Source of the DNA: Halobiforma lacisalsi AJ5
GTDB taxonomy: Archaea; Halobacteriota; Halobacteria; Halobacteriales; Natrialbaceae
DNA: 64,000 nt
NCBI RefSeq assembly: GCF_000226975.2
Contig: NZ_CP019286.1
Location: forward strand, 1 to 64,000
Direction: 5' to 3'
Below are positions 26,341 to 60,390 of the stretch, piece after piece. A program made the translations under genes and the position numbers. Under the pieces are notes generated by a model, which was not told the DNA's origin, did no database searches, and saw only the letters and a program-made list of their open reading frames with translations. The first letter of the stretch is position 1, and each line of letters opens with the position of its first letter.

Positions 26341-26402
26341 CCCTTTAAGTCAAATTCCGTACTGGGCTACCACTTAATACGGATGCCACTCGAGCGGCGC
26401 AT

Positions 26403-26725: not shown

Positions 26726-26731
26726 TCAATA

Positions 26732-26968: not shown

Positions 26969-27023
26969 ACCCTGTCTACCAAAATTATAATGTGTTTGCT
27001 ACGATGAAATCGTGTTACTGAGA

Positions 27024-31443: not shown

Positions 31444-31445
31444 CG

Positions 31446-33926: not shown

Positions 33927-33931
33927 CGCAA

Positions 33932-35953: not shown

Positions 35954-35956
35954 GGA

Positions 35957-37303
35957 TTAGTCACCTCCAGCGGGCGACGGCCCGCCAGTCGGTCGGTGAT
36001 CTGTTCGAGCGGCGTTCGAGGACGTTTCTCGTTCTTCGTGGTCTCGGCGGCCGGCGAGTCGGGCGTTCAGTTCTTCGACGGTGCGACGGGCGTCACGCAC
36101 CTCGTTGCCCCGGTTGTACTCTTTCTCCGCGACCAACAGCGCCGCTTCGATGTTCGACAGTGCGGTCGTCGGTGCGAGCCGCCCCTCGAGCACGAGCGGA
36201 GCGAGCCACGTCTGTTCACGGAGTTGGTCTTGCGTCAGCGGATCGACGTCTCGTAGGTCGTCAACGCCGTGGTGAGCAAAGACGGGGTTGCCGTCATCGT
36301 CGTACTCGATTCGCCCGTTCTCGGTCGTCTTGACGACGCCCTTGCAGGCGACTTCGACCATGTCGTCGACGGTTTCGATTCCGAGTTCCTTCCAGTAGCG
36401 GGCCGCGTTTGGCCCGATTTCGGTTACGTCCTCGAGTGGATGCTTCGCCGCGGCGTTGCGCCGGTCCTCGTAGTCCTGGCGGACCGCTTCCCGCATGAGT
36501 TCGGCGCGACTCTCGGCCATCTGCTGGAGACGGAGAATCCAGCCGTGTTTGCGCTCGAGGAAGATCGCAAGGCCGGCAATGATCCCGATGGCAACGACCC
36601 ACGAGACGAAGTTCTGGCTCGCTGCAATCAGCAGCGAGATGAACATGAGGACATGCTCGGTGAACAGTTGGTCGAACAGTTCGGCACGCTCCTCGGTGTG
36701 CTGGAGGTACTCCATCGCTCCGCTGGGCGTTCGCTCGAAGCCTTCAGCCTCGGCCTGGTTCTTCGTGTAGTCGATGAAATCGGCGTAGGCGGCGTACTCC
36801 GCGGCCTCAACCGAGACGTCGGTGTCTGTCGCATACAGGTCGATCGAGTGACTCGAGTCGTCGGCGAAGAACAACTCCGCCGTGAACAGCGTCGGCGATT
36901 CGCCGGCCGCTTCGTCGTCGTACTCGACGCGGATCACGGTGCCGTCGCCCATCACCCGGACGTCGGCGTTTGACTGTTCGATCCGAGCCGATTCCACGGG
37001 ATCGGACAGCGAAAACGTCGCGAACGGGCCGGACGTGTTGTACACTTCATCGGACGACTCGGTGTCGATCTCGAGGTAGTCTTCGTCGGTCGTCTCCGGC
37101 GTGACCCGGACCGAATCGGCGATCGTCGGGCCGTCCGCTGTCGGGTCGACCGCCGTGGTATTCGATTCATCAACGTTCGGCATCGGGGCATCACCGGCGG
37201 CCGCGGCAGGTGCAACGGCCCCGATCACAGCCCCGACGCACAGTAGGGCGATGCACAGCAGAGCGAGCCGAGTTGTTACTCGGCGGTGAGTGTGACTAAG
37301 CAT
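35957..37303 (-). CDS. Secreted/membrane protein with cytosolic HhH-like domain
   Basis: 448 residues: a signal peptide (RLALLCIALLCVGAVIGAVA, cleavage near 36), an extracellular beta-rich domain (~40-200), a hydrophobic block with two helices (~218-255), and a cytosolic part with a helix-hairpin-helix-like segment (DVTEIGPNAARYWKELGIET). This links an outer domain to a possible DNA- or protein-binding inner domain. Three bases separate it from the next gene. Confidence 0.7.
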   Translation of the reverse strand: MLSHTHRRVTTRLALLCIALLCVGAVIGAVAPAAAAGDAPMPNVDESNTTAVDPTADGPTIADSVRVTPETTDEDYLEIDTESSDEVYNTSGPFATFSLSDPVESARIEQSNADVRVMGDGTVIRVEYDDEAAGESPTLFTAELFFADDSSHSIDLYATDTDVSVEAAEYAAYADFIDYTKNQAEAEGFERTPSGAMEYLQHTEERAELFDQLFTEHVLMFISLLIAASQNFVSWVVAIGIIAGLAIFLERKHGWILRLQQMAESRAELMREAVRQDYEDRRNAAAKHPLEDVTEIGPNAARYWKELGIETVDDMVEVACKGVVKTTENGRIEYDDDGNPVFAHHGVDDLRDVDPLTQDQLREQTWLAPLVLEGRLAPTTALSNIEAALLVAEKEYNRGNEVRDARRTVEELNARLAGRRDHEERETSSNAARTDHRPTGGPSPAGGD

Positions 37304-37317
37304 GAGTGGTCTCGTGG

Positions 37318-38313
37318 TCAGTCGCTCGAGGCCGATTGACGGTCGGCCTCACGGTCGTCATGGCGGTACTCCCGGCTTCGGGACGGCCGGTCGGGCTCGA
37401 GAACGTCTTTCGCCTCACGGAGCCGGCGCATCCCCGCGTCTTCCTCGTTCGTAAGGATGTTCTCGATTTCGGCGAGCTGTTCGGAGAGAATCGAGACCTG
37501 AATCCGCTCGGCCCGGAGTTCGTCCTCGAGTTCGCTTTTCTCGTTCTCGAGTGCCTGGAGTTCGGACTTGCTCTTCCGATCCGATGGGACGATCTCGTAA
37601 TCGGCGACGCGGTTCGGGTTATCGATCGTGTTCTTGTCCTTCGCGCGGACCGTAACCTCGCCGCGGCGTTCGTCCCAGACCGCAGAGTCGTCCTCATACG
37701 GGATCTCCCACAGCACGAGGTCGTCCGGGAGACGGTGGTCCGAATCCCGAAGCTCCGGGTCGTCAGCCACGAGCAGCGGCCGCCAGAACAGCCCGAGGAA
37801 CGGGTTGGCTTTCAGTTGGGGGAGGAGTTTCGTCCCATCCTCGGTGATACGGACCTTGCTCCGATCGAATCTGACCGTCTGGCGTTGATTGCCCTTCTCC
37901 GTCTCGAGCATGATCTGTAGCTCCCCGGCCTTGGCGTTCTGTTTTGCTTTGAACCAGACGCCGCCGCCGACACAGACCGCGCCGAAGACTGCGTACTCCA
38001 CGTAGTCGGCGTAGACGGCTTCGCTCGGTGCGCCGGTAGCAGCTACTTGGTACATGGCAATCGCCAGATACAGCACGAGGACGATAACGGCCCCGAGAAA
38101 CGCCTTCGTCATCGGCGTCTGTCTCGAGACACGGTGCCGGAAGCCGACGCGTCGGTGGCGTTCAGTCCCGTCGACGGCCAGCCGATCCCCGGTACTCTCC
38201 GTATCGTGCTCGTCGTCGCCCAGCGACGTCGTGAGCAACACGAGCCGGTAGAGAACGTACAGCCCGAAGAGGAACGCGACACCGCCGATGACCGCTGATT
38301 GCCAGTCGATCAC
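37318..38313 (-). CDS. Membrane protein with C-terminal coiled coil
   Basis: 331 residues. Three membrane helices (~7-26, ~72-92, ~108-125), a mid-protein domain with LGLFWRPLLVADDPELRD, and a coiled coil (~255-300, ALENEKSELEDELRAERIQV). It overlaps the downstream-reading neighbour by four bases. Function unknown; likely a complex component. Confidence 0.65.
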   Translation of the reverse strand: MIDWQSAVIGGVAFLFGLYVLYRLVLLTTSLGDDEHDTESTGDRLAVDGTERHRRVGFRHRVSRQTPMTKAFLGAVIVLVLYLAIAMYQVAATGAPSEAVYADYVEYAVFGAVCVGGGVWFKAKQNAKAGELQIMLETEKGNQRQTVRFDRSKVRITEDGTKLLPQLKANPFLGLFWRPLLVADDPELRDSDHRLPDDLVLWEIPYEDDSAVWDERRGEVTVRAKDKNTIDNPNRVADYEIVPSDRKSKSELQALENEKSELEDELRAERIQVSILSEQLAEIENILTNEEDAGMRRLREAKDVLEPDRPSRSREYRHDDREADRQSASSD

Positions 38314-38978
38314 GGTGCATCACCCTCCTCGTCGCCCATCACAGCGTCGATCGTCTGTTCGATCGCTTCGCGGTCTTCCGGCGACGGCTGTTCGTCGAAC
38401 TGCGTGGTCACGCCGTCGGTGGTCTCCGAGCCAGTTCCCGCCGAGAGGGTGTCGACAGCACGGGCGTTGAGTTCGTACCCGCGTTCGAGGAAGTCGCCGT
38501 AGGAGTCCTGGTAGGCCTCGAGTTCATCGAGGACAACGTGACAGTCCCACTCGATTGCGAGGTCGGTGAGCTTCTCGATAACGTCCTCGTCGGACTCTGC
38601 TGTCCGGAGAATCCGCTCCATCGTTTTCGTCACGGAGTAGCGTTTGACCATCGGGCAGGCGACGCCGTAGTGGGGACAGCCTTCGCAGGCGTCCGGAAAC
38701 GCCTCTTCCGGGTCGTCGATCCGACGGTGGTCACGCATCTTATTCCCGCGTTTCAACTCTCGAAGCCGAGATTTGACCGCACTGCCGACACTGCCGTCGG
38801 GGAGCGAGACTGACTCACGGAGCCACTCGTCTATCTCGCGGTACAGCTCGGGATCGTCATCACGGACGTACTCGTATTTGTTCGCGAGCGTCCGTCGCAG
38901 TTCAGAGAGTTCGGTCCGTTCCTCGTCGGTCGGTGACGCATCACCGTTCCGTCTCGATGTGGTAATGTTCGTGCTCAT
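38310..38978 (-). CDS. Cytosolic Cys-motif protein
   Basis: 222 residues from ATG 38978 (MSTNITTSRRNGDASPTDEE). Helical, with a central CEGCPHYGVACPM cluster (CxxC...C) that could bind zinc or an iron-sulphur cluster. A leucine-rich helix and a disordered acidic C-terminus follow. Translationally coupled to both neighbours by ATGA overlaps. Confidence 0.65.
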   Translation of the reverse strand: MSTNITTSRRNGDASPTDEERTELSELRRTLANKYEYVRDDDPELYREIDEWLRESVSLPDGSVGSAVKSRLRELKRGNKMRDHRRIDDPEEAFPDACEGCPHYGVACPMVKRYSVTKTMERILRTAESDEDVIEKLTDLAIEWDCHVVLDELEAYQDSYGDFLERGYELNARAVDTLSAGTGSETTDGVTTQFDEQPSPEDREAIEQTIDAVMGDEEGDAP

Positions 38979-39214
38979 GGGTTCGGTTGAAGATCGCTGA
39001 GGAGGTCGGTCGGTGGCTGCACCTCGAGCGGGAACTCGGGTGGCTCGTCGGTCGGGAAGACGACCACGACGCCGCGATCGCAAAACGCCGCGTACTCGCG
39101 ACAGCCTCGTAACGGGTTCCGCGACGAGCGCGAAAACAGGACGTCGAAATACAGTTGGATCGCCTCTTTGTTCGTCGTGACTGTGCCGGTCGTGTAGGCT
39201 CTGGATTTCGTCAT
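38975..39214 (-). CDS. Small protein of unknown function
   Basis: 79 residues (MTKSRAYTTGTVTTNKEAIQ...), a compact alpha/beta pattern with CREYAAFCDRGVVVVFPTDE. Start 39214 chosen because the stop overlaps the next start by four bases and the upstream extension crosses the end of the preceding gene. No family recognised. Confidence 0.55.
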   Translation of the reverse strand: MTKSRAYTTGTVTTNKEAIQLYFDVLFSRSSRNPLRGCREYAAFCDRGVVVVFPTDEPPEFPLEVQPPTDLLSDLQPNP

Positions 39215-39260
39215 GTCATCGGTGTGGTTGGAGTTATAACCGCGAGCGAAACGAAAATCG

Positions 39261-39566
39261 TCACTTTGAGCGGTTGTAGGGCGTCCAGTTGGCGACCCGT
39301 CGTCGCCACCCGCCCGGACTGGCGTTGAGATCGCCGTTGCGAACCCGGCGGGTGTTACTGAACAGGAAGTACGACCACAGCGCGAGAATAGCGACACCGG
39401 TCACGTAGTAGCCACCGACGATCGAGAACACGCCTGCAAGAATCCACAGCAAGTTGAACGGAATGCGGGCGATACTCTCGAGCGTGCGGGATTGGTCATG
39501 AAATCGGAGGCTCAAGAAATAGCCCCCGACGACGCCGGCAACGATCAGGACGATTGCAGCAATCAC
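39261..39566 (-). CDS. Small membrane protein
   Basis: 101 residues with two or three hydrophobic helices (IAAIVLIVAGVVGGYFLSL, then IPFNLLWILAGVFSIVGGYY and an adjoining segment) and a basic cytosolic tail. It overlaps the upstream gene by four bases. Part of the membrane set of the cluster. Confidence 0.65.
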   Translation of the reverse strand: MIAAIVLIVAGVVGGYFLSLRFHDQSRTLESIARIPFNLLWILAGVFSIVGGYYVTGVAILALWSYFLFSNTRRVRNGDLNASPGGWRRRVANWTPYNRSK

Positions 39567-39874
39567 TGATTCTCCCCTCCGCTCGAGTTGGACTGGTTGG
39601 TCGTATCACGACTTTGGCCACCGTTCCCGTCGCGTTTCGACGTGCGACTGAAGGGGTTGAGACCACGGGCACGGCGCTTGCGGCGGTTCTGCTTCCGAGC
39701 GTTCTTCCCCTGGTTCGTCACCAAGATGTACTCTGGGACGAACTCGAGGAGGGCGTAAAACACTACCAGCACGGTGATAATCAACAGCGTGAGTGCCCAG
39801 CCGCCCGGATGGAGGAGGTTTGCCAGCAGGAACAGACCGATCAACGACCCGACGACGATCTGCGAGAGGTTCAT
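39563..39874 (-). CDS. Small membrane protein with basic tail
   Basis: 103 residues: two helices in the first ~50 residues (LSQIVVGSLIGLFLLANLLH and LTLLIITVLVVFYALLEFV) and a strongly basic, asparagine/glycine-rich C-terminus. The basic tail is unusual for a haloarchaeal protein and could face DNA or lipid. Overlaps both neighbours by four bases. Confidence 0.65.
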   Translation of the reverse strand: MNLSQIVVGSLIGLFLLANLLHPGGWALTLLIITVLVVFYALLEFVPEYILVTNQGKNARKQNRRKRRARGLNPFSRTSKRDGNGGQSRDTTNQSNSSGGENQ

Positions 39875-41145
39875 GCGATCACCCCCGCTGGACCGGCCAT
39901 GAACAGGTCGAAGTTGAAGTTCACCATATCGGAGAGCCCCGCCCGGATCGACCGCACGTCGTGGCGGATCGTATCGCGTGTGTTCGGGTTCGCCGTAAAC
40001 TCGACTTCGACCTCGCCGGGAGCGTAATCGTCCGTGTCGAAATGCAGTTGCAAGGACTCGCCGTCGTCGACAGTCCGGTAGAACGCTGGGGCCGAGCTAT
40101 CGGTCGAGATCGGCTTCCAGTTCTCGTCGGGACTCGTTCGATAGACGGCGTTCCAGTCGTCGATCGACTTGCCATCGTTCTCGAGTGGCACCGTGACGAT
40201 CGCCCCCTGCGAGGAGTTGATTTCGTAGACTCGTTGCTCGAGGTCGGGCTCGTCGGTCAGTGATGGAAGCCGATCGAGCCACCGGTCGGTGTCCGTCGCC
40301 TCGTCCTTCCAGGCGACACCGAACACGCGCACGCGGTTCGGTGCAAACGTGACCTCGGAATTGGCATCAAGGCGGAACGTGACCTCAGTGTAGCTCATAT
40401 CTCGGTCGAAGTCGTGGGTGTTTCGCCACGTTGATTCGGTGTCCCCGTCGGCCGCCGACACGTCGCCGACGTCGGCCGGCCGCACCATATCGGGATGGAT
40501 CTTGACGGTCATCTCGACGGGGTAGGAGTTGGGATTCTCGGCCTCGAGTCGGACGAAGACGTCCGTCTTTTCGATCTGTGTACGGACGTTGCGATCCGTC
40601 GACTCGACTGCCTGCGTCTCGTTGAACGTCTCTGCGTAGGCGTCGTCGGTGAGGTAGTCGTCGTGAACGACCTCGACAGCGTCGTCCTCGTCATCGCTTT
40701 CGGTCGCCGCAACTGCAAACCCGGTCGCGAATAGGCTTGCAACCAGACAGACGGCAACCGCGAGCACGAGGAGGCGCGCCGGTTCGAGCGTGCCCCGCCC
40801 GTTGCGTCGTTCGTGTTTCGACCGGCCCGGGACCAGCCGAAGATAGATCCCGTACAGCCAGTTGCCGAAGCCGCCGTCGCGGAACCACTTGAGTGCCCCG
40901 CGCATCTCATCGACCGGGAGCATGACCGCGGCCGTGACGAACGCCCCGACCGCTGCGAGCCCGGCGACGATCGCCAGATCGGCCGCGTGCGAGAACGCAG
41001 CGAAAAACACGAACAGCACCGGAACGATCGCCTTCGAGATCGTGAGGAAGACTCCGCGCTCGAGGCGGCGAAGCCCGTTCCAGAAATCCGTGCGACGGCC
41101 ACGACCGCGCGGGCCGTCATCACCTCGTTTCCAGGGCATGGTCAC
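39871..41145 (-). CDS. Membrane protein with large extracellular beta domain
   Basis: 424 residues. A basic N-terminus, two helices (~35-75), a third at ~130-152 (LLVLAVAVCLVASLFATGFA), then a ~270-residue acidic ectodomain of beta-sandwich character (VFVRLEAENPNSYPVEMTVK; FTANPNTRDTIRHDV). The topology of inner helices plus an outer beta domain is like viral or surface-complex envelope proteins. Overlaps both neighbours by four bases. Confidence 0.68.
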   Translation of the reverse strand: MTMPWKRGDDGPRGRGRRTDFWNGLRRLERGVFLTISKAIVPVLFVFFAAFSHAADLAIVAGLAAVGAFVTAAVMLPVDEMRGALKWFRDGGFGNWLYGIYLRLVPGRSKHERRNGRGTLEPARLLVLAVAVCLVASLFATGFAVAATESDDEDDAVEVVHDDYLTDDAYAETFNETQAVESTDRNVRTQIEKTDVFVRLEAENPNSYPVEMTVKIHPDMVRPADVGDVSAADGDTESTWRNTHDFDRDMSYTEVTFRLDANSEVTFAPNRVRVFGVAWKDEATDTDRWLDRLPSLTDEPDLEQRVYEINSSQGAIVTVPLENDGKSIDDWNAVYRTSPDENWKPISTDSSAPAFYRTVDDGESLQLHFDTDDYAPGEVEVEFTANPNTRDTIRHDVRSIRAGLSDMVNFNFDLFMAGPAGVIA

Positions 41146-42823: not shown

Positions 42824-44245
42824 TTACTCGCCAATTCGGCGGCGCGAGACGAGCAGTGTCGCTCCGAGCAGCGGGATGCCGTAGGTCAGCACGCCGAACG
42901 ACTGCGTCAGGCTGTAATCGAGGTCCTCACGCAGGTCGCCCGGACTCGGCAGGTCGTTCGCAGCCATCGTCATGTCGACCGTGCTGTCGTCCGCAACCGT
43001 GTCGTCGGCGAGGTTGACGACGTGTGGCCCCTCGTCGTTGAGCACGATGTAGTCGTCCTCGGCGGCGTCGACGCTGTTCCCGTCAATTTTCTCACCGGGC
43101 TCGTCGTAGAAGACGTACGTGATCGACCCGTCGAGGTCACTGTTCATCATGTACGCGAGGCGGTCGCCCGACTCGGCGTCGTCGGGGATCGCCGCGTCGA
43201 TCTCGTCGCTGACGTTCTCGTCGGAACTCGAGACATAGATCTCGTCCGTGTTGCTCGAGACGTCCGGTGCGGGATCGATTTCGGCGTCGGTGCGGTCCCA
43301 AATCGTCCGATCGAAGACGGTGACCGAATTGTTCGTGTAGTCGGCGCGAGCGTCGCTCTCGGCGTCGAAGATGTGGATCTGCGAGACTTCGTCGCCGTTC
43401 TCGAGCGTGCTGGTGAACTCGTTGGCCGGCGCGTCGGCGTCGTTGTTCGCGACGGCGACCTGGAAGTCGGCGTTCTCGTTGATCCCGACGTCGAGTCCGC
43501 GGAGGTCGGCGTGCGAGATGTCGATCTCGTAGGTGCCGGGCGTGTCGGTACTCGAGTCAGCCTGCGAGACGACCGTCACGTCCGAGACCGTGCCGATCTC
43601 GTGGCCGTCAGCGGACATGATCGTGGCCTCGAGATTGTCCGTGTAGGCTTCGACCTCGAGCGTTTCGGCGGCCGTGCTCGAGCCGTTGTAGTTCGACACC
43701 GTCGCGCCTTCACTGAGCGCGGAGTTCGACGTGACCGACGGCGTGTCGCCGACGACGATCGACAGAGCGTCCGTCCCCGCGTCACTGTCGACCGACGTGC
43801 CGGTGTCGTCGAACAGTTCGACGCCGACGTCGTAGCTGCCCGCGTTGTGCGGGTTCTCGACGCCCGAGAGCGTGACCTCGATCGTGTCGGTGTCACTCAG
43901 GGTGACGGTTGCATCGAGCGTCACCGTCAACGTCGTGTCGTCGGCGGCCTCGACCGCGCTAACGGTCTCGTCGGTGCCCGCAATCGAGACCGTCACGTCA
44001 TCGGCCCCCAGGCCCGAGACGTCACCGGCCTCGTAGTCGATCTGGATCTCTTGCAGGCTCGGTGAATCCGTGTTGTCGTAGTCGGTCGAGATCGTATGGT
44101 CAGTCGTCGCGCCGGTACCGTCGTCGGTTGCCGTCACTGTCGGTGCCGTGATCGCTGCCGCGCCGCCCGTGAAGGCCACGCCGACCACCGAAAGGGCCAG
44201 CATGGCCGTCATGAACAGCGTTGCAACTCGTTTGAGGTTCGTCAT
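42824..44245 (-). CDS. Surface glycoprotein-like protein with C-terminal anchor
   Basis: 473 residues: signal peptide (LFMTAMLALSVVGVAFTGGA, cleavage near 30), a very acidic Thr/Ser/Asp-rich ectodomain of repeated beta-sandwich character, several N-glycosylation sequons (NGSS, NNSV, NVSD), and a single C-terminal membrane helix (SFGVLTYGIPLLGATLLV) followed by SRRRIGE. This is the layout of a haloarchaeal S-layer-like or virion envelope glycoprotein. Its own upstream gap (44246-44362) and downstream hairpins suggest separate, strong expression. Candidate main coat protein of the system. Confidence 0.75.
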   Translation of the reverse strand: MTNLKRVATLFMTAMLALSVVGVAFTGGAAAITAPTVTATDDGTGATTDHTISTDYDNTDSPSLQEIQIDYEAGDVSGLGADDVTVSIAGTDETVSAVEAADDTTLTVTLDATVTLSDTDTIEVTLSGVENPHNAGSYDVGVELFDDTGTSVDSDAGTDALSIVVGDTPSVTSNSALSEGATVSNYNGSSTAAETLEVEAYTDNLEATIMSADGHEIGTVSDVTVVSQADSSTDTPGTYEIDISHADLRGLDVGINENADFQVAVANNDADAPANEFTSTLENGDEVSQIHIFDAESDARADYTNNSVTVFDRTIWDRTDAEIDPAPDVSSNTDEIYVSSSDENVSDEIDAAIPDDAESGDRLAYMMNSDLDGSITYVFYDEPGEKIDGNSVDAAEDDYIVLNDEGPHVVNLADDTVADDSTVDMTMAANDLPSPGDLREDLDYSLTQSFGVLTYGIPLLGATLLVSRRRIGE

Positions 44246-44362: not shown

Positions 44363-45175
44363 TTACTCGTAGGCGAGTTCGTCGCGATCGGTTCCCTGCG
44401 AGAGGCCGAGCGGGATCCAGACGTTGCGGGCGAGCCACGCATCACGGGTGTCCTCGCGCCACCAGTGCTCGCGGTCGCCGTCGTAGAACACGAACGGGTT
44501 CTCGACAGCCTCGTAGCTGGTACTCGAGTACCGGCCGTTGTCGTACCACGTCTCGCGTGTCTCGAGCCAACTGCCGTACTCCGCAAAGTCCTGCACGTAC
44601 TCGCCGTCGGCGCTCAACGCCGGGGTAAAGAAGTGGTTGTGCGGCCGGGCAACCGCGAGCACGACGTGGGTCTGTTCACCGGCGACCCGGTCCTCGACGA
44701 AATTCGACGCGTCGCCGTCGATCCGCAGCCCGTAGTGATGCCCGCCCGAACACCACACCTCCTCGATGGTCTTGTCCGGCTGCCGGAACACGATGATCGG
44801 CTCGTGGTCGGTGAAATGAGCGTCCTTGAAGTCGATATCCCACCCCAGATACCAGAGCACGCTTCGCTGCGTGTTGCTCCGGACCCAGTAGTAGTGGGCG
44901 ATTACGTCGTGCTCGGTGCTCTCGGCCGTCCAGCCGTACATGCCGCGGACGTCGCTTTTGGCCTCTCGAGCTTCGTCCCACGGGAGGTGGTCGTAGCTCA
45001 ACTGCGGCTGGAACTCGAGCAGTTCCTCACGATCGTCCCGAACCTCGATGTGGTCCGGTGGGGCAGGGTTGCCGGCGTCGTCGCGCTCGAGGTCGTCCTG
45101 CCGGCCGTCGGACCCACCGAAGGGGCCGAAAAAGGACGGTGTCGCCGCGGTCGCGAGGAATGTACGTCGCTGCAT
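44363..45175 (-). CDS. Tat-exported protein of unknown function
   Basis: 270 residues from ATG 45175 (MQRRTFLATAATPSFFGPFG), a short Tat signal very like that of the next gene upstream. The mature part has aromatic-rich segments (AHYYWVRSNTQRSVLWYLGW, then WCSGGHHYGLRIDGD), histidine clusters and a VARPHNHFF motif. No family recognised. The longer ATG at 45184 overlaps the subtilase stop. Confidence 0.65.
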   Translation of the reverse strand: MQRRTFLATAATPSFFGPFGGSDGRQDDLERDDAGNPAPPDHIEVRDDREELLEFQPQLSYDHLPWDEAREAKSDVRGMYGWTAESTEHDVIAHYYWVRSNTQRSVLWYLGWDIDFKDAHFTDHEPIIVFRQPDKTIEEVWCSGGHHYGLRIDGDASNFVEDRVAGEQTHVVLAVARPHNHFFTPALSADGEYVQDFAEYGSWLETRETWYDNGRYSSTSYEAVENPFVFYDGDREHWWREDTRDAWLARNVWIPLGLSQGTDRDELAYE

Positions 45176-45180
45176 GAGAG

Positions 45181-46758
45181 TCACCCGAGGAACCCGGCGA
45201 TTGTCCGGCCGCGTGTGGCCGCCAGCGCCTCGTTGAACGCGTCGCGAGCCTTTGCGTCGTCGTCGCGGACGGCTTCTTGATCATCCTCGTAGTCGGTGCC
45301 CTCGAGTGCGGCCTGGACGTCCAGCAAGCCGTGTTCGGCCTCGGTCGTCCCGAAATTTGGCACCGGGTAGGCGTACTTGGTCAGCCGCTCGAGGATCGTC
45401 TCGTTGTCGTGCCCGACGCCTGCGAGGACAGCCGCCGCGCCAGTAACCATCGGCGCGGCCATGCTCGTTCCGCTCAGTGTGCCGAACGGATCGGCGGTGA
45501 CGTTCATCCCCGGCGCGGCCAGTTGCGGCCTCGCGCCCTCCGACGCGCCCTCCGAGAGGTCTTGGGTGCCGGGTGCGGGGCCGACGTTACCGAAATAGGC
45601 GATCTGTGTGTCATCACGGTCGCCGCTCTCGGGGACGTTCGTCGCGTTGACGCCGACGGCCTCGTCAACAGATGACGGATGAGCCACGAACGTGGTCGCG
45701 TAGCGGTCATTCCCGACCGCCACGGCGGGGAACACGCCCGCGTCCCAGGCGTCGGCCAGCGCGTCGGCCAGCGGCTCAGACCACTGGGGCGAGCCCAAAG
45801 AGAGGCAGGCCACGTCCGCGCCCGCGTCGACGGCGAGTTCGACCCCGGCGACGATATCGGCTACCGACCCCGAGCCGTCGTCGGCCAGTGATTTGGCGAC
45901 TAGGATCTCGGCGTCCGGCGCGAAGCCCTGGTAGGCCGGATCGTCGTGGTTCGAGGCGATCGCCGCCGCGACCCAGCTCCCGTGACCGTCGCCGTCGGCA
46001 ACCGCCCGCGGGCCGTTCGCATCGACGGTCTCGTCTTCCCCGCCGGTGAAATCAGTCGACTCGGGGTGGAACCGGTTGGTCCCGTCCGCGTCCTCGAACA
46101 GCGCCCGATCGTCCGCTCCGGTGTCGATCACGGCGACCGTGACGCTCGAGGTGTCCACGCCCGCGAGGAAATCGTCGTCGGCGCGGACGAGTCGGCGGGC
46201 CTCCCGGAGCGTCGCTTCCGGCGCGTCCTCGTCGAACGCGAGGCCGTCGTCATCGGGCGTCGGGTCGGTGCCGAGCGCGGTCGTCAGCGACAGGCGATCG
46301 AACAGTCCGAGATCGTGGTCGACGTCGCCTTGCGCCGCGAGGTCGGCAGGCTCGAGCACGTCCGGTCGATCGAGGAACGCGTCGGGCGCGGCGTACTCGA
46401 GGTAGTCGAGATCGGTGAGCCCGCCGCTGTAGCGGTCGATCCCGAACGTCGTCGATCGGCCCGCGTCCGACCACGACATGCTCACGGCGAGCATGTTGAC
46501 TCCCGAGAGGTCCCGGTGGATGCTGGCCGTCTCGGTGGTCTCGAGCCACTCCTCGAGTGACTCGCGGTGGTCGGCGTCCTCGTACCGAAGGACGAACCCG
46601 GGATAGCCGTCACGGAACGTGTCCACGTCGACGTCGCTCTCGAGGGTGGCCGGCGTGAACGCCTCCGGCGACCCCACGGCGAGGCCGCCGAGGACGGCGG
46701 GCGTCGTGGTTGCGGCTGCTGTAGCTCCAACCGTCGTGAGGAATGTGCGTCGTTGCAT
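45181..46758 (-). CDS. Tat-exported subtilisin-like serine protease
   Basis: 525 residues. Tat signal QRRTFLTTVGATAAATTTPA, a propeptide-like region (~40-190), then a peptidase S8 domain with the catalytic triad in standard motifs: Asp in VAVIDTGAD (~210), His in GDGHGSWVAA (~258) and Ser in LSGTSMAAP (~430). Related in design to halolysins. Within the cluster it may mature or remodel the surface proteins, or help penetrate a recipient envelope. A C-terminal helical extension of ~50 residues follows. Confidence 0.88.
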   Translation of the reverse strand: MQRRTFLTTVGATAAATTTPAVLGGLAVGSPEAFTPATLESDVDVDTFRDGYPGFVLRYEDADHRESLEEWLETTETASIHRDLSGVNMLAVSMSWSDAGRSTTFGIDRYSGGLTDLDYLEYAAPDAFLDRPDVLEPADLAAQGDVDHDLGLFDRLSLTTALGTDPTPDDDGLAFDEDAPEATLREARRLVRADDDFLAGVDTSSVTVAVIDTGADDRALFEDADGTNRFHPESTDFTGGEDETVDANGPRAVADGDGHGSWVAAAIASNHDDPAYQGFAPDAEILVAKSLADDGSGSVADIVAGVELAVDAGADVACLSLGSPQWSEPLADALADAWDAGVFPAVAVGNDRYATTFVAHPSSVDEAVGVNATNVPESGDRDDTQIAYFGNVGPAPGTQDLSEGASEGARPQLAAPGMNVTADPFGTLSGTSMAAPMVTGAAAVLAGVGHDNETILERLTKYAYPVPNFGTTEAEHGLLDVQAALEGTDYEDDQEAVRDDDAKARDAFNEALAATRGRTIAGFLG

Positions 46759-46770
46759 GAAGATCACCTC

Positions 46771-49700
46771 TTAGGCGGCCACCCGACGGCGCGTGAACAG
46801 TCCGAGGCCGACAGTCAGTCCGGCCGTCGCGGCATGGATCGCGCCGACCGAGAGAATCGGCAGTGACGGACTCGGGAGCGACATGGCCAGTGAGTGCTGG
46901 AGGCCGGCGACGATTCCGGGATCGGGATCGATGGTCAGATCGATCGTGCCGTCCGAATCCGTGTAGGTCCGAATCACCGTTTTCTCGCCGTCCTCGCCCC
47001 GAAGTTGCACTTCACCGTGGCGGGTCGTGTCGTCGACGGCCAGCGGATTCGCGCCGAACCACGCCGGATCACCGCGCCAGACGGCCGCGTCCGCGTCGAG
47101 CGACCGGTCGAGATGCACGACCGTCTCGATGTTGCTCGAGACCTGGCGTTGATCCGTGCCCTCGAGCACACGGACGGTCAGCCCGTCCGCGCCAGTCATG
47201 GCCTCGCCGGGTTTGACGTGGATCGATCCCGGCACCTCATCGGCCGGCACGACGCCCCGGACCGCGAGGCGGTCGTCCTCGCGCTCGATCGCCGCGTTTC
47301 GCAGGCCCTCGCCCGCGAGTGCGAACGACCCCGACGCGGAGTCGGCAACCCGAATCGTCGGGTCGTCCGAACGGCCGTCCTCAAGGGCACGGACTTTGAA
47401 CGCCTGGACGAACTCGTCACCACTGCCGCTTGCAACGGTCAGTTTGACGTGATGCACGCCCGCGCCGTTCGTGGTGAACGTCGCTCGGTCGTCGGCCCGA
47501 ACCTCGCCGGCGATCGTGTTGCCGTCGGGATCGTAGGCGGTCACGTCGGTGATGCCGTCGATCGATTCGCCGTCCGCGGGCCGCACCGTCATGGCCACCT
47601 GTTCGGACGGGCCGGGCGAATGGGTGTTCAGGCTAATCGCCTGAATGTCGGGGACCAGCCCCTCGAACGCCGGGTTCTGGATAACCTGATCGCTGCGACC
47701 GACCCCCTCATCGTTGGCGACGACGACCTCGAACTGGCCGACAGCGGTGTCTAGCTCCTCGGTCGGGTACTCCACGACGACTTGGTCGCCCGCGAGCACG
47801 CCCGAGGACTCGATGTGCCAGTGTTCATCGGCGACGGCTGTGGGGTCGCCACCGTCGGCCGGGTGTTTGAGCACGGTCACGCCGTCGGGCTCGAGGTCGC
47901 TGGCGAACGGGAACGTCGCTCGAATCGTCTCCTCGCCGATCTCCGTCTCGCCGTCGCCGGCATCGATCCGGTCCTCGAGCGTCCGTAACGTTTCCTCGAG
48001 CGTTTCGATTTCGTCGACCAACTCGTCGTTGTTGAGATCGGGGTCGTCGTAGTCGACGTCGACGTCGACCTCGCGATCGAGCGCATCCTCGAGTTCGTCT
48101 TGGAGGTGATCGTTCTCCTCGAGCAGGTCTGTGTAGTTGTCGTGGATCTCGGTGAGATTCTCGTCGGTCCACTCCTCGGGGAGTTCGTCGAAGCCCTCGA
48201 GGTCGGCGACCGACTCGTTCAGGAGCTCGTCCTCGAGCCAACTTCGCCAGTCGTCGTAGGCCTCCATGTCGTCCCACGGAATCTCATCCGAGCGGATGAC
48301 CTGGACCTCGGCGTCTTGCTGTTCCGGGTAGACCGTGCCCGTCTCGGCGGGCAAGAGCCAGGACTGGTTCGCGCCGTCAAGTGAGTACTCTCGGATATCC
48401 TCGAGTCGAAGGTCGTCGAAGCTCGGATCCTCGAGGTTTTCGTCCCGGAGGTCGTTGAGCGCGGTGATGACCTCTTCGTCGCCCTTGTACGCCTGGATGG
48501 AGTACTCGTCCGGGCCTGCGGGTGCGTTGACTTCGAAGTGGCCGGTCGCGTTCGTCGTCGTGCGTTCGCGAACGACCACGTCGTCGAGAGCGTTCTCGGC
48601 CATGTCGTAGCGTTGCTCGAGGCGATCGGCCCGATCCCAAAGATCCTGGGCGTAGTCGGCGGCGATATCATCCGGATCGCCGACCACGAACGTGTAGGCC
48701 TTTGCCCGCTCCCCCTCTGGGTAGGCCTGATAGATACCGACCGGGAGTCGGGCTTCGGCGACGTGATGCTCGTTCGTCGAGAGCGGATTCGCGCCGGTCG
48801 TCTCGTATTTCGGCGTCGTCTCGAGCGTGCGCGTGTCGATCGTCTCCCCGAGCGGGTCCATCTGCTCGACGACGATCGTGCCCTCGGTGACCGCGCCGGG
48901 GAACGAGTTGTCCACTTGGTTTTCGACCCAGCCACCCTCATCGGGGTCCCACAGCGAGATCGTGACCCGTTCGCCCTCGTCGATCCGGACGCGGGGGTCG
49001 TCGACGCTCGAGGAAATGACGGTCGCGGTGCCGACGCTCCAGTCGTCCGATTGGTGGACAAGCGGGTACGTGCCGTCGATTGCTTGATCCCATTCACGGG
49101 TGTCGAGGCGGCCGTCGTCGGCTTCGAAGTCGTCGGTGAACTCGTCGTAGTCCTCGGGGACCGAGTTCTCGAGTTCGTCGGCGAGGTCGCGGGCCGAGTT
49201 GATGTCGTCCTCGAGCTCGCCGAGGTCAGCCTCGTCGAGTGCGGGTTCGTCAACGCCCCAGGCTTCGACGGTGATGTTGTCTTGCTCGACAGGATCGCCG
49301 TGTTGATCAACGACTTGGCCGGTGATCGAGGAAACGTCAGTGTAGATCGTTCCTAATGTAGTTACATCCCGGATTTGATCGTCATGAGCTTCGATATCCC
49401 AGGTCAAATCACCGCTATCTGTGTTATATGCTCTGAGGATACTATCATCACCACCAGCGAATACCGTCTCGGAATCTACTGAAGTCGCGACACCCCAAAC
49501 ATCGCCAGTGGGCTCGTCGGTAGACCACATCTCGTCTCCACCGCCGGTTTTAATAGATCGAACAGTCGAATCCCTACTGCCCGTAAATATTTTCGTGCCG
49601 TCAACAGACGGTGAAATAGTGAACAGCCGGTCTGTGTGGCCTCCATTCACCCATTCCTGGCTACCAGTGGTCACGTGAAGAGCCCTTACCTGATCATTAC

Positions 49701-50460
49701 TGTCACCAGCATAGACGTAGTCACCGTTTGGTCCCGCCGCTAACGCTCGAACTGAGACAGTTGCGTCACTATTAGTCCAGAGATGGTCGCCTGAATCCGC
49801 ATCATATGCGATTACATCACCAGAACTACTTGATGAGAATACTATGTCACCCTCCGGAGAGAACGACGTTTCATACACGCGGTCCGTATGCTCGTCCCCA
49901 TCGGACCAAATCACGTCACCGGTGTCTGCATCAAGAGCAACGACCTCATTTCCGTGAGTCCCTGCCACGATCATCTCTCCGTCAGGGGATGTGGCAAGGC
50001 CCTCTACCCGACTTGAGCCTGAATCCCACGTCCACCCAGAATCACCTGAGTCCGCACTGAGTTGTGTAACGGTTCCGGAGTCATCACCAACATACACATA
50101 CTGATCATCAGGAGCTGGCGTTAAGGACCGAGGAGCAGAGCCAAACGGATCTGTCGACTTCCATTGTTCTTCCTGGTTTCCTGCGTTAAAAGCCTTTACA
50201 GAGCCATCTGCGGACGCTGTATAAATTGTTTCACCACCAACAGAGTCGAGATTTAATTCCGTGGCGAGTGTGTTTGTGGGATCAGAGGCCGGGTCTAATC
50301 TTTCCAAATTAGAATTCGTGTCAGCAGCACCAACACTGAAAGGAACCGCAACAAGACTAAAGATGAGAATGCACGCGATCAGAACGGATCGGATCTGAAC
50401 ACGGTTGCTTGCTCTTTCCCGCCAGTACGTCAGTCGTGTGGGTTTGATTTCTGGTTTCAT
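46771..50460 (-). CDS. Large surface protein: beta-propeller, coiled coil, C-terminal anchor
   Basis: 1,229 residues from ATG 50460. Signal peptide/anchor (VLIACILIFSLVAVPFSVGA, ~27-46). Residues ~60-375 are PQQ/WD40-like repeats (e.g. TIYTASADGSVKAFNAGNQE, VYVGDDSGTVTQLSADSGDS) forming a beta-propeller. Next come a carboxypeptidase-regulatory-like domain (GQVVDQHGDPV), a long mixed region, a coiled coil (~780-830), Ig-like domains, and a final membrane helix before TRRRVAA. Base composition changes at ~49330, the end of the propeller. A frame extension to 50640 is a shadow of the preceding gene. Likely recognition or coat protein. Confidence 0.78.
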   Translation of the reverse strand: MKPEIKPTRLTYWRERASNRVQIRSVLIACILIFSLVAVPFSVGAADTNSNLERLDPASDPTNTLATELNLDSVGGETIYTASADGSVKAFNAGNQEEQWKSTDPFGSAPRSLTPAPDDQYVYVGDDSGTVTQLSADSGDSGWTWDSGSSRVEGLATSPDGEMIVAGTHGNEVVALDADTGDVIWSDGDEHTDRVYETSFSPEGDIVFSSSSSGDVIAYDADSGDHLWTNSDATVSVRALAAGPNGDYVYAGDSNDQVRALHVTTGSQEWVNGGHTDRLFTISPSVDGTKIFTGSRDSTVRSIKTGGGDEMWSTDEPTGDVWGVATSVDSETVFAGGDDSILRAYNTDSGDLTWDIEAHDDQIRDVTTLGTIYTDVSSITGQVVDQHGDPVEQDNITVEAWGVDEPALDEADLGELEDDINSARDLADELENSVPEDYDEFTDDFEADDGRLDTREWDQAIDGTYPLVHQSDDWSVGTATVISSSVDDPRVRIDEGERVTISLWDPDEGGWVENQVDNSFPGAVTEGTIVVEQMDPLGETIDTRTLETTPKYETTGANPLSTNEHHVAEARLPVGIYQAYPEGERAKAYTFVVGDPDDIAADYAQDLWDRADRLEQRYDMAENALDDVVVRERTTTNATGHFEVNAPAGPDEYSIQAYKGDEEVITALNDLRDENLEDPSFDDLRLEDIREYSLDGANQSWLLPAETGTVYPEQQDAEVQVIRSDEIPWDDMEAYDDWRSWLEDELLNESVADLEGFDELPEEWTDENLTEIHDNYTDLLEENDHLQDELEDALDREVDVDVDYDDPDLNNDELVDEIETLEETLRTLEDRIDAGDGETEIGEETIRATFPFASDLEPDGVTVLKHPADGGDPTAVADEHWHIESSGVLAGDQVVVEYPTEELDTAVGQFEVVVANDEGVGRSDQVIQNPAFEGLVPDIQAISLNTHSPGPSEQVAMTVRPADGESIDGITDVTAYDPDGNTIAGEVRADDRATFTTNGAGVHHVKLTVASGSGDEFVQAFKVRALEDGRSDDPTIRVADSASGSFALAGEGLRNAAIEREDDRLAVRGVVPADEVPGSIHVKPGEAMTGADGLTVRVLEGTDQRQVSSNIETVVHLDRSLDADAAVWRGDPAWFGANPLAVDDTTRHGEVQLRGEDGEKTVIRTYTDSDGTIDLTIDPDPGIVAGLQHSLAMSLPSPSLPILSVGAIHAATAGLTVGLGLFTRRRVAA

Positions 50461-50464
50461 GGAT

Positions 50465-51067
50465 CTAATTATTACCATCTTTATCGTCACTGAACGGCCA
50501 CCAATCAAAATCAAACGAGAACAGACCATCGTCATCGTCGCGATTATCTCCATCATCACCGAACGGCCACCAATCAAAATCAAACGAGAACAGACTATCT
50601 CCACCGCCGAAAATGAAGAACCCGCCTTCTGAAGACTCATCTACTAACTCCGCATCACTCCCATCTTCATCCTTATCGTCGCTGTCAGTCCCTGAACCAT
50701 CAGGGATCGCAAGCTCTAATGAGTCAAGTTCGGGCGTTGATCCATATTCTGACGATGTTAAAGTAATATCAAACCAGTAATCCGCGGCATCGTCGACCGA
50801 ACGTTCCAAATCTGCTAATAGATACGTCTGAGTTCCGTCTTTGACATATATCGTCTCAGAATTCTCGGCCCCATTGACAGACTCATGAACGGTAATCGCA
50901 AGACCAGTATTGGTTGGCACCGTGGCTGTAGCCGAAAGTTCATGATACCCGGTATCCGCAACGGACAATGTCGGAACCGACCCGAGTAATCCGGCAACAC
51001 CTACCGCGGCACCTGCTTGCAGAACGGCACGGCGCTCTATACAGGTGGCTGATTCCGTCGTTGACAT
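50465..51067 (-). CDS. Tat-exported protein with duplicated aromatic motif
   Basis: 200 residues. Tat signal (ERRAVLQAGAAVGVAGLLGS), a beta-rich domain (~40-125), an acidic linker, then two nearly identical motifs, LFSFDFDWWPFGDD and LFSFDFDWWPFSDD, 23 residues apart. The aromatic motifs could bind membrane, sugars or the partner propeller proteins. It sits between the two propeller genes with 2-4 base gaps. No family recognised. Confidence 0.68.
   Translation of the reverse strand: MSTTESATCIERRAVLQAGAAVGVAGLLGSVPTLSVADTGYHELSATATVPTNTGLAITVHESVNGAENSETIYVKDGTQTYLLADLERSVDDAADYWFDITLTSSEYGSTPELDSLELAIPDGSGTDSDDKDEDGSDAELVDESSEGGFFIFGGGDSLFSFDFDWWPFGDDGDNRDDDDGLFSFDFDWWPFSDDKDGNN
50492..50595. 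repeat. 35-bp direct repeat, 69-bp period, inside the 200-residue protein gene
   Basis: A 35-base stretch starting GAACGGCCACCAATCAAAAT at 50492 is repeated exactly at 50561. It encodes the duplicated FSFDFDWWPF motif. Exact nucleotide identity suggests a recent duplication, in frame (69 = 23 codons), able to expand or contract. Confidence 0.9.
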
Positions 51068-51069
51068 GG

Positions 51070-52986
51070 TTACTTCATCCCCTCCGTGATCCGCGCATGA
51101 TCAAAAACGAGACTAGAATCCGAATTTTCTGAGTAAAAGCCAATTCCCGGATCAGTCCCGTCTGTCGGATACGTACTATCTTGGATAGCCTCCGCGAATA
51201 TTTGATCAGCTCTGTTTCCATCCGCGTCAAGTTCGTAGACCGTTATCTCATGGCTACCATCGGACCCCCACGCGATCTCGACGTCATACCAAGTATTGAT
51301 ATTGACAGACGCTGCTGTATCAACGATATCAGTCCGGGCACCAGAATCATACCGAGAGATTCGAATGACGCCATCAGCAGATTTGAAGAAAATTCCGTAA
51401 TGATCGTTGTCGTTGGCATCAACACCGTAGCAAATAGTCGGCCGAGAACTTCCTGTGTAGGTCTTTACGGAATACACGTCGCCCGGAGAGGGATAGTTTT
51501 GAAGACCGTCGCCAGGGCGTGAGATAAGCCGATATTCTGGGGACGATGCAGTGAGAGCTTGGTCGCCTTCGACGACTTCTGAAGTTTCGAGTTCCCAATA
51601 GCTAGTCCCAACAGAGTAGCTATCGAGGTTGGCCGTTTCGAAGTCATCAACTATACCTCCAGTCTCTTCGAATACACGTCTGACAATACCTCCATCAGTG
51701 ATCTCTATTTGATCATCTTTGCTCTCATAGTCCTGCCAATCATCTTGTGAAGACAGCGTTAACGGAGAGGTGGATACCGTAGTAGGAGTCGTCATTAGTG
51801 ACGCCACGTAGCTCGGCTCAGGATACTGGACATCCCACCACGCAACTTCATTTTCGTTCGACTCGCCAGCTGTGACCATCTCGGCGTCGCCATCGCCGTC
51901 AAGATCGACAAACCAGATATTGTCGTCCGCCTTTCCAATTGAACCCTGGAGGGAATCGACCCAAGTCCCAGTATCTTCATCATATTCCCAGAGGTAGAAC
52001 TGATCCTCCGATCCCTCCAGCGTAATTAGCTGATCTCGAGGCGACCCCTTCCAATCGTGAGCGGCTACGTTGCGCCAGTTGCTTCCAGAATCGACTTCAA
52101 CCTCGAGCCATGCATTTGGGTCGGTTACATCCGACGGGCCAGGGTAGCGGTAGAAGCCCATCCCATCGCCAGCATTTTCCCCGGGTTGATCGATCAGGTT
52201 ATCACACAGAATGTCAAGCGGCTCGCCGTGCCCTGACAGATCCGCATTTGTTATCCCTTTCCGTTTTCCAAGCGGACCTATTTGATGGTCAGTCCACGGG
52301 GTGTCATACGGGTCAGATGGTTTTTCGACCCACCACAGCCCACCGTCTGCATCACTGTTCCATCCAGTTCGGGCAGAAAACACGAGATCACCGCGACCAT
52401 TCCTAGATACGTCGAGTTGGTCTCGAACGAGACCATGTGCCCCCTCCTGTTGGACGAGTTCATGCAGCGCCCAATCAGAGGGGTCCATCGGGTCGCTTCC
52501 AGTAAACTCGAGCCATCTGAGAGCCCCCTCATCGGCCTGTGATCCGTCGTGTGTGTAGATTAGGTCGTTTTCTTCACCGTCGCCAGTCAGATCGCAGATA
52601 TACGCATCCTGGAGGTATGGTGCATTATCGTCGAGAATTGTCGATTCCCAACTGGCTTCATCGGTCGGATCACCGCCCGACGGTTTATAGATCGTCAGAA
52701 CCCCATCATTTTGATTAAGAGAAAATACTTCCACAATTTCGTCCCCGTCGATATCACCTGCTTCGGTGCCTTCGATTTCGCCAGTACTCTGATAATCAAT
52801 TTCATACTCGCTCCATGTACCGGACGGATCGCCTGGATTTTCGTACCAGAAAACGTACCCCGACTCGTCGCCACCAACAACAATATCGAGGTTTCCGTCG
52901 TTGGTCATGTCTGCCATGACCATGCCGTCATATGCTTGACCGCTTTGAATCGTGTTTCGAGTGAAATCCCACGTCATCGCGGACAC
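51070..52986 (-). CDS. FG-GAP/VCBS-type beta-propeller protein with lectin-like domain
   Basis: 638 residues. At least six DxDxDG-type calcium loops occur in propeller repeats across ~20-390 (DMTNDGNLDIVVGG, DIDGDEIVEVFS, DLTGDGEENDLIY, DLDGDGDAEMVTAG). The C-terminal ~200 residues resemble a concanavalin/LamG-like jelly roll (DDFETANLDSYSVGTSYWEL ... NINTWYDVEIAWGSDGSHEI). Such proteins usually bind ligands outside the cell, yet no signal peptide is visible; it starts MSAMTWDFTRNTIQSG. It could be exported with the Tat protein next to it. Lower GC than the flanking genes. Confidence 0.75.
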   Translation of the reverse strand: MSAMTWDFTRNTIQSGQAYDGMVMADMTNDGNLDIVVGGDESGYVFWYENPGDPSGTWSEYEIDYQSTGEIEGTEAGDIDGDEIVEVFSLNQNDGVLTIYKPSGGDPTDEASWESTILDDNAPYLQDAYICDLTGDGEENDLIYTHDGSQADEGALRWLEFTGSDPMDPSDWALHELVQQEGAHGLVRDQLDVSRNGRGDLVFSARTGWNSDADGGLWWVEKPSDPYDTPWTDHQIGPLGKRKGITNADLSGHGEPLDILCDNLIDQPGENAGDGMGFYRYPGPSDVTDPNAWLEVEVDSGSNWRNVAAHDWKGSPRDQLITLEGSEDQFYLWEYDEDTGTWVDSLQGSIGKADDNIWFVDLDGDGDAEMVTAGESNENEVAWWDVQYPEPSYVASLMTTPTTVSTSPLTLSSQDDWQDYESKDDQIEITDGGIVRRVFEETGGIVDDFETANLDSYSVGTSYWELETSEVVEGDQALTASSPEYRLISRPGDGLQNYPSPGDVYSVKTYTGSSRPTICYGVDANDNDHYGIFFKSADGVIRISRYDSGARTDIVDTAASVNINTWYDVEIAWGSDGSHEITVYELDADGNRADQIFAEAIQDSTYPTDGTDPGIGFYSENSDSSLVFDHARITEGMK

Positions 52987-53080
52987 CTCCCGGCCAACAG
53001 CACGGATAAGTTGATCACTGCCCGCAGGCCACTGCGGTCGCTATGCGACTTCTCTGAACGTCTTGTTCCTGTCATGAAAA

Positions 53081-53743
53081 TCAGCCCCAGGAGTCGTCGA
53101 ACTCCGACGTCCGGAGTTCCCGCACCAGTTCTTCCATGTTCGATTCGTCCGATTCGCCGGCCGCCTTCCGCTCGAGGGCGTTCTCCCGCAGTCGCCGCCG
53201 CCGGCTCGGGATCACTTCGTCGACGGCCTCGAGCACGAAGTCGACGACCTCGGTGAACTCCTCGCGGCCACGATCGCCGAGGACGCCGCCGAATGAGATC
53301 GTTCCACACTCGGGACAGTGCCGGTGGCGGCGGTGGTCGTGTTTCGTAATCTCGAGTGCCGACTCGAGGCTCGTCGGATCGTACTCGAAGTCGACCTCAA
53401 CCCGCGGGAGGTGATGTTCCGGTTCGGTTAGTTCGCAGGCCGCGTCGTACTCGTACCAACACTCCGGGCAGAACAGCGGCGGGTTGCCGTAGCTCCGGAG
53501 AATTGATCCGGCCACCCATGCGTCCCGATTGACGCCCTGGACCTGCGTGTGGGTGTCCCCGCGGCCAAGCATCTCGTCGATCGACGGGATATCCGGGTCG
53601 TCCTCGGGGTCGCCTTCGGGTTCGTCGTGTGTGGGTTGCGTTTCGTCTTTCGGCGACCGCTCGAGGTCGAACTCGCCGGTTTCGCTGTCGAAAATGTTCG
53701 TGCGTGCGCCGAGCGCGACGGTGTTGTCACTGTTGGAACTCAT
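53081..53743 (-). CDS. Zinc-finger protein, first gene of the leftward cluster
   Basis: 220 residues. A disordered acidic N-terminus, then CPECWYEYDAACE (~92) and HRRHRHCPECGTISFGG (~140), two zinc-knuckle halves, with a basic helix (IPSRRRRLRENALERKA) and an acidic end. It is divergent from the putative repressor at 54049, placing both at the control region of the cluster. A regulatory or DNA-binding role is likely but not proven. Confidence 0.65.
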   Translation of the reverse strand: MSSNSDNTVALGARTNIFDSETGEFDLERSPKDETQPTHDEPEGDPEDDPDIPSIDEMLGRGDTHTQVQGVNRDAWVAGSILRSYGNPPLFCPECWYEYDAACELTEPEHHLPRVEVDFEYDPTSLESALEITKHDHRRHRHCPECGTISFGGVLGDRGREEFTEVVDFVLEAVDEVIPSRRRRLRENALERKAAGESDESNMEELVRELRTSEFDDSWG

Positions 53744-59855: not shown

Positions 59856-59998
59856 TCGGTTACACAAAATCGAGGAGAAAGCTCACGACTTCAGTCGTGG
59901 GATGAATCCGACCACACACGACACAAACCATCCTCGATAGCCGACCGAGAGTTGATGTAGTGGTAGCATCTAATATAGATTGGCGTCTATCTAATCGT

Positions 59999-60388: not shown

Positions 60389-60390
60389 CG

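Follow-up and report, generated by a model that had tools for sequence, protein, structure and literature searches.

A GC-poor, probably exchangeable head in the ORF6 surface gene of a haloarchaeal plasmid-vesicle plasmid

ORF6 of a pR1SE-like plasmid and its low-GC island

The window analysed here is a stretch of 64,000 nucleotides from Halobiforma lacisalsi AJ5 (NZ_CP019286.1, positions 1 to 64,000), which is part of a 216-kb replicon in a 4.4-Mb haloarchaeal genome. Its genes between 31446 and 53743 are collinear with the Halorubrum lacusprofundi plasmid pR1SE, including the gene before ORF6, ORF6 to ORF9 and a second core cluster. By this gene order the element is a pR1SE-like plasmid-vesicle plasmid (apHPV), and the minus-strand gene at 46771-50640 is its ORF6, the subject of this analysis together with the low-GC island that begins inside it. 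The first-pass annotation had viewed the locus in a phage tail-fibre setting, which does not hold for an element with the gene order of pR1SE. As described by Lücking et al. 2023 (PMC10818511), apHPVs are plasmids potentially moved in self-encoded plasmid vesicles; vesicle transfer is demonstrated for pR1SE only (PMC10818511, PMC10384203).

The features of the locus are listed in Table 1. The open frame of ORF6 reaches 50640, and the plausible start is Met61 of the frame, which gives a protein of 1,229 residues. At 50465-50640 this frame overlaps the repeat-rich 3' end of the upstream Tat gene, so that a spurious repeat (VCSRLILIGGRSV) stands before the likely start. The C-module matches its homologues with E-values down to 1e-302 (pR1SE ORF6: 28% identity, E 1e-71) and has 21 invariant columns across 15 sequences. 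Its AlphaFold model has a mean predicted local distance difference test score (pLDDT) of 54, and the best part resembles Ig-like domains (VIA Z about 9, root-mean-square deviation 2.4 Å over 88 residues); many unrelated Ig proteins are tied in this comparison, so no specific relative of the C-module can be named. For the head, other ORF6 heads (36-37% identity; Natronorubrum daqingense and Natrialba aegyptia) are closer relatives than the generic propellers of haloarchaea. The only phage match for ORF6 was between its propeller region and one hypothetical phage protein (25%), with no phage tail homology, and no phage match was found for the FG-GAP gene. A search for related loci with a 7-sequence alignment returned three genome loci only and zero viral contigs.

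Table 1. Features of the apHPV locus in the window (positions of the whole stretch)
Feature	Coordinates	Strand	Remarks
Second conserved apHPV core cluster	31446..41145	-	six genes in pR1SE order, E 3e-13 to 5e-168
826-aa protein, ORF25 position	31446-33926	-	pR1SE 39%, E 5e-168; 38-64% identity in 13 haloarchaeal plasmids
ORF9 equivalent (DUF2808)	42824..44245	-	PF10989 E 4e-8; pR1SE counterpart 42%
ORF8 equivalent	44363..45184	-	pR1SE counterpart E 7e-13
ORF7 equivalent, subtilisin-family (S8) protease	45181..46767	-	Peptidase_S8 E 7e-33; pR1SE S8 46%
ORF6 equivalent: signal peptide, head and conserved C-module	46771..50460	-	1229 aa from likely start Met
Conserved ORF6 C-module, 853 aa	46771..49332	-	GC at third codon positions (GC3) 0.83
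Junction motif ITGQVVDQHGDPV, first C-module residues and edge of DNA homology	49288..49326	-	
Leader and exchangeable head (PQQ/WD40-like beta-propeller)	49333..50460	-	PQQ_2 E 1e-26; WD40/BamB structures; GC3 0.45
Tat-signal protein (200 aa), aromatic repeats, low GC	50465..51067	-	TAT signal weak
FG-GAP repeat protein, C-terminal region weakly LamG/concanavalin-like, low GC	51070..52986	-	FG-GAP_3 E 9e-12; Laminin_G_3 17.5 bits, below cut-off
Anchor gene (220 aa), the gene directly before ORF6 in pR1SE	53081..53743	-	pR1SE counterpart E 5e-9; GC3 0.80

The break in composition had first been noticed from three samples of 45, 27 and 29 G/C in 60 nucleotides, which were exact on recount. The GC content is 0.653 at 46771-49326, 0.508 at 49327-52990 and 0.631 at 52991-53743. 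Segmentation of the region from 28 to 56 kb placed an island at 49272-52968 (GC 0.507) between flanks of 0.671 and 0.601, so the low-GC stretch does span the propeller, the Tat gene and the FG-GAP gene (GC3 0.44 and 0.51 in the latter two, against 0.80-0.85 in the anchor and protease genes on either side). The composition of the host was estimated from sampled stretches. Among 302 stretches of 3.66 kb from the window, one is as low as the island, and the minimum of 0.505 is about the island itself.

Along ORF6 the composition is not smooth. GC3 is 0.45 up to residue 450 and 0.83 beyond it (window 49290; support interval 49350-49227), with a log-likelihood gain of 90.6 for the change-point, compared with at most 8.9 in 1000 codon shuffles and 34.7 in 1000 block shuffles. 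The GC content of fourfold-degenerate sites is 0.43 before the break and 0.88 after it. Since the break sits at synonymous and fourfold sites, it is a feature of the DNA, and amino-acid composition is ruled out as its cause. Distances in codon usage are clear for the window; across the family described below they give no clear pattern, 27 of 50 heads being nearer to other heads.

The step alone is not unique, for the window has others of similar size at 25.2, 28.0 and 23.1 kb. These steps (at 23151, 25251 and 28051; 0.125-0.153 between adjacent 1.5-kb windows) bound low-GC stretches at about 23-25 and 27 kb. The step in ORF6 stands out because it divides a single gene at a domain boundary and because it is found again throughout the family.

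The GC valley across the ORF6 family

Relatives of the ORF6 C-module were present in 40 of 391 Halobacteria genomes. From these genomes and from plasmid records we collected 50 non-redundant ORF6 genes, complete or near-complete (our labels L and G denote loci and genomes). Similarity to the window begins at residue 2-3 of the C-module query in most homologues, regardless of the length of the N-part, which ranges from 225 to 697 residues. It turned out that GC3 is lower in the N-part than in the C-module in 45 of the 50 homologues (median difference 0.19; Wilcoxon p 4e-12). Low GC, at first taken as specific to this plasmid, thus characterises a class of exchanged heads. A strong GC3 change-point was found in 35 genes, at a median of 19 residues from the independently defined junction; 20 of the 35 lie within 30 residues of it, while 1.8 are expected and the maximum in 5000 random draws was 8.

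At the 27 loci with both neighbours, the median GC3 is 0.74 in the anchor gene, 0.66 in the leader, 0.48 in the head, 0.81 in the C-module and 0.81 in the S8 gene. The GC3 of the C-module tracks the plasmid (rho 0.84 with S8 and 0.83 with the anchor gene); that of the head hardly does (rho 0.18 with the protease, not significant; 0.32 with the anchor gene, p 0.06). Judged from sequence, the heads, most of which are GC-poor, have a separate compositional history.

The valley lies at the 5' end of the gene, so a 5'-end or translation effect, with GC lowered over the opening part of long genes for exported proteins, might account for it. The adjacent S8 genes served as a control and rejected this explanation, for their 5' ends have no dip (38 genes, median difference -0.016). 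Besides, the valley spans 225-700 codons and ends at a domain junction, and in the window it takes in two whole upstream genes; we consider a 5'-end effect extremely improbable.

All 50 homologues have a hydrophobic, signal peptide-like N-terminus, and a clear C-terminal membrane segment was found in only 12 of them. The valley also differs between copies with and without a nearby S8 gene. It is present in 36 of 41 copies with the protease, whereas the GC3 difference between head and C-module is below 0.1 in 7 of 8 copies without it (L065, L067, L069, L075, L076, L088, L011 and L079; Fisher p 7e-5, or 9e-4 with one clade collapsed). The comparison was made post hoc, and L055, at a contig end, was excluded. 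The pattern fits stranded copies that may no longer receive new heads.

Several single loci deserve mention. At L089 the entire apHPV core is low in GC (C-module GC3 0.40, protease 0.43), the only case in which carrier and head are both GC-poor. In Natrinema sp. DC36 (L022:8535-9776) an HNH endonuclease gene lies between ORF6 and the S8 gene, possibly a homing-type insertion. The public annotation of L014 (pR1SE2), L010, L015, L016, L020 and L022 starts ORF6 within or past the head; the head is therefore largely missing from the deposited proteins, which probably hides head diversity in databases.

Junction motif and exchange of heads

Family-wide, the conserved C-module starts at one motif (ITGxVxDQxGxPVxNATV). 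At this junction ([IV][TS]GxVxDQxGxPVxNATV), the mean ungapped pairwise identity rises from 0.27 to 0.63 for nucleotides and from 0.07 to 0.63 for amino acids, as measured on 23 genes in which the motif search was successful, with near-duplicates removed. The nearest relative of the window, in Halobiforma nitratireducens (L054 = L094), shares 58% identity over 858 residues of the C-module, and the window head has no match to it at E 1e-4, so that the two halves of the gene are unequally conserved, as the first-pass annotation had proposed to check. The two share DNA homology (76%) from the codon of I439 at window 49326, and upstream of this point no homology to H. nitratireducens was found until 54.2 kb. 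Homology to L064 starts at 49326 as well. The break had been noted at 49330, at the end of the propeller, which is at most 4 bases away. On the anchor side, DNA homology of 74-75% with L057, L064 and L012 covers the anchor gene and ends at 53103-53109; these loci are not the closest C-module relatives, so the two flanks have different histories.

Other pairs give similar pictures. pR1SE2 (L014) and L083 are 82% identical over the anchor gene and the first 230 codons and 83% identical for 5.1 kb from the junction, with no homology between the head interiors over 943 versus 619 nt. In the Halosolutus gelatinilyticus plasmid NZ_CP095494.1 (L056:8695-15555), two complete tandem ORF6 genes stand upstream of one S8 gene. 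They share 80% DNA identity in the leader and 72% in the C-module and are sisters on the C-module tree, and their heads are non-homologous and of different class. Two or three ORF6 copies are also found on the replicons G295:C3, G046:C3, G119:C3 and G009:C2 and on Halorussus vallis CP100004. On the C-module tree, which is a quick tree under a single model, the propeller label changes 13 times, with at least 8 changes forced by well-supported branches, and all classes together change 21 times. Between L057 and L018, DNA identity of 86% begins abruptly about 1 kb into the C-module and continues downstream, which indicates that recombination edges occur within the C-module too.

Without any exchange, the head could diverge very fast in place and drift GC-poor by escaping codon selection or GC-biased gene conversion. 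This would agree with 45 of 50 heads being GC-poorer than their own C-module whatever the fold, with the intermediate GC3 of the leader, and with the heads of class S1, which track their own plasmid. It does not explain, however, why unrelated head classes sit on sister C-modules (the L056 copies; L018 versus L057), or why head GC3 is decoupled from the plasmid when that of the short anchor gene is not. The flanks of L014 and L083, at 82-83% DNA identity around unequal, non-homologous interiors, and the mosaic of L056 also oppose it, and we regard divergence in place as unlikely. Taken as sequence comparisons, these results demonstrate that the head cassette was replaced as a unit, repeatedly and between conserved flanks, with compositions largely independent of the carrier. 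Thus, of the earlier proposal that a receptor-binding module was replaced by recombination at a domain boundary, the replacement is well supported, and the receptor-binding nature of the module is unproven.

Head folds and additional genes of the island

Head classes were assigned after removing the shared leader. A PQQ/WD40-type propeller is present in 24 of 50 heads, the window included, and the heads fall into at least 6 fold or sequence classes, several of them without a known family. For example, the head of L071 has a clear lectin-like Laminin_G_3 domain (46.7 bits; cut-off 27.6), while that of L068 matches CBM_4_9 with 24.5, just under the cut-off of 25.9; weak carbohydrate-binding matches occur in the heads of L068, L070 and L065. 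The model of a class S1 head, built from one sequence, has a pLDDT of 36. A sequence search for solved-structure relatives of the C-module, the FG-GAP protein and the S1 heads gave none that was convincing, and profile comparison detected no relation between S1 heads and the lectin-like part of the FG-GAP protein.

The FG-GAP gene is inserted between the anchor gene and ORF6. The only strong relatives of its product are encoded by two adjacent genes of the Halopiger apHPV pHALXA03, after the ORF9-position protein. The Tat protein is short and related to the coat proteins that occupy the ORF9 position in four apHPVs (G277, G119, G180 and G115). Judging by these relatives, both extra genes are part of the apHPV gene pool.

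The island of the window is wider than that of any relative, with 2,440 bp and two extra genes between the anchor gene and ORF6, as would be expected if a foreign low-GC segment had simply been inserted once into this plasmid. The same valley across the family refutes this as the sole account, for which there is very little probability left; a single insertion may still be the route by which the two extra genes arrived.

Neighbouring genes and the replicon

In cluster 1 (ORF6-ORF9) the order of pR1SE is complete on the minus strand, with the coordinates of Table 1. Relatives of the anchor gene adjoin ORF6 upstream in about 30 homologous loci, usually with a gap of 0-20 bp. In cluster 2 (ORF17, 21 and 23-25), six pR1SE genes at 18769-27767 are paired in order with window genes from 39871-41145 down to 31446-33926, the individual ORF numbers being given by position alone. 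A variable stretch separates the two clusters in the window. Replication genes lie near the core, namely an Orc1/Cdc6-like AAA protein at 57306-58340 (AAA_16, Cdc6_lid) and an MCM_OB protein at 30505-31560. A replication gene near the apHPV core is usual, not universal. IS200/IS605-type genes occupy 59960-61563, with a TnpB-like gene (Cas12f1-like_TNB) at 60301-61563 and an apparent TnpA just before it, and an apparent shortened TnpB is found past the anchor gene at 54768-55826.

A possible role of the head in recognition

We consider the island to be, probably, an exchangeable recognition cassette of the apHPV surface protein ORF6. The comparisons show that ORF6 is built of a leader with signal peptide, a variable head and the conserved C-module, and that the head, here together with the two extra upstream genes, is swapped as a unit from the upstream anchor gene or the leader to the motif at the start of the C-module. 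Two apHPVs in the same cell, or two copies of ORF6 carried by a single plasmid, could trade heads through homologous recombination in these conserved flanks. The C-module would hold ORF6 on the vesicle with the head facing outward, where the head might bind a host-surface or other ligand, and a swap of the head would retarget the vesicle in the manner of phage tail-fibre tips and of the variable spike subdomain of pleolipoviruses. ORF6 of pR1SE is a particle protein by mass spectrometry (PMC10818511).

Several points weigh against this reading, above all on the side of recognition. Receptor binding by the head is suggested by analogy. An N-glycosylation mutant is infected by pR1SE vesicles no less well than its parent (PMC10384203), and this dispensability of host N-glycosylation argues against an N-glycan receptor or a simple glycan model. 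Lücking et al. 2023 (PMC10818511) proposed ORF17, not ORF6, for host recognition. The FG-GAP protein is without a signal peptide and its N-terminal hydrophobicity is low, which makes a role at the surface doubtful. With the FG-GAP protein lacking an export signal and the Tat protein being a short relative of coat proteins, the suggestion that the island products are outermost ligand binders is not established. Other points concern the exchange itself: no donor was found for the window head, the nearest relatives being other ORF6 heads at 32-37% identity; the heads of the window and of H. nitratireducens are both propellers, and very fast divergence is possible for that pair; and in class S1 (10 genes) head GC3 tracks that of the C-module (rho 0.92), and S1 heads therefore look long-resident.

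The head may also be exchanged for reasons other than host recognition, as a structural or cargo-binding domain (a coat-like WD40) or as a decoy whose variation helps it to escape antagonists directed at the surface, for instance proteases or other elements. As scaffolds, WD40/PQQ propellers are generic and occur in 131 of 382 haloarchaeal genomes, and ORF6 was first regarded as a coat protein (PMC10818511); the dispensability of host N-glycans for infection (PMC10384203) would also suit such a role. A coat or cargo function predicts a conserved fold, yet there are at least 6 head classes, some lectin-like, on a C-module that is kept, and export is suggested by the signal peptide-like N-terminus that all 50 homologues share. 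We hold this explanation to be a serious but considerably less probable one.

The exchangeable recognition cassette can be extended, more tentatively, to a scheme that we propose as a possibility only. Vesicles would retarget through ORF6 heads drawn from a class-wide GC-poor pool, with the leader or anchor gene and the junction motif of about 40 bp as the sites of recombination; second ORF6 copies would serve as spare heads, and stranded copies without S8 would stop exchanging and come to resemble their replicon in composition.

How plasmid vesicles find their recipients is the question on which the ORF6 heads bear. If the head is the recognition part, the host range of these elements, which stand between plasmids and viruses, could be predicted from sequence and tested in a laboratory haloarchaeon by exchanging heads, and the exchange of receptor modules, known in phages, would also operate in vesicle-borne plasmids. 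Besides, other surface genes can be screened for such cassettes at little cost by looking for a GC3 valley.

Comparison with known systems

Phage tail-fibre and receptor-binding proteins have a conserved anchoring part and an exchangeable distal tip, with a mosaic breakpoint at a domain boundary and sometimes alternative copies. ORF6 is similar in its conserved base and a tip exchanged at a fixed boundary. It differs in orientation, with the head at the N-terminus and the base at the C-terminus, and in its carrier, an archaeal vesicle-borne plasmid.

A second likeness is to the VP4 spike of pleolipoviruses (HRPV-2 and HRPV-6), which has conserved and variable subdomains, the variable N2 being the proposed receptor-binding part (PMC10599561). 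Compared by description, both belong to membrane-enveloped haloarchaeal particles and combine conserved and variable parts. For the spike, however, the variation described is a divergence that follows the host and not an exchange of unrelated folds at one motif (PMC10599561).

The closest system is ORF6 of pR1SE and other apHPVs (Lücking et al. 2023; Erdmann et al. 2017), which is the same gene in the same position with the same neighbours (anchor, S8, ORF8 and ORF9). According to Lücking et al. 2023 (PMC10818511), the ORF6 N-terminus varies (WD40 in about 56%), the C-terminus is conserved and the role of ORF6 is left open; the available text of that paper makes no mention of composition, exchange edges, recombinant flanks, lectin-like heads or tandem ORF6 genes with different heads. 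In conclusion, variable N-termini of ORF6 were already known, and the additions made here are the GC valley, the exact edges of the cassette, the recombinant flanks and the plasmids with multiple heads.

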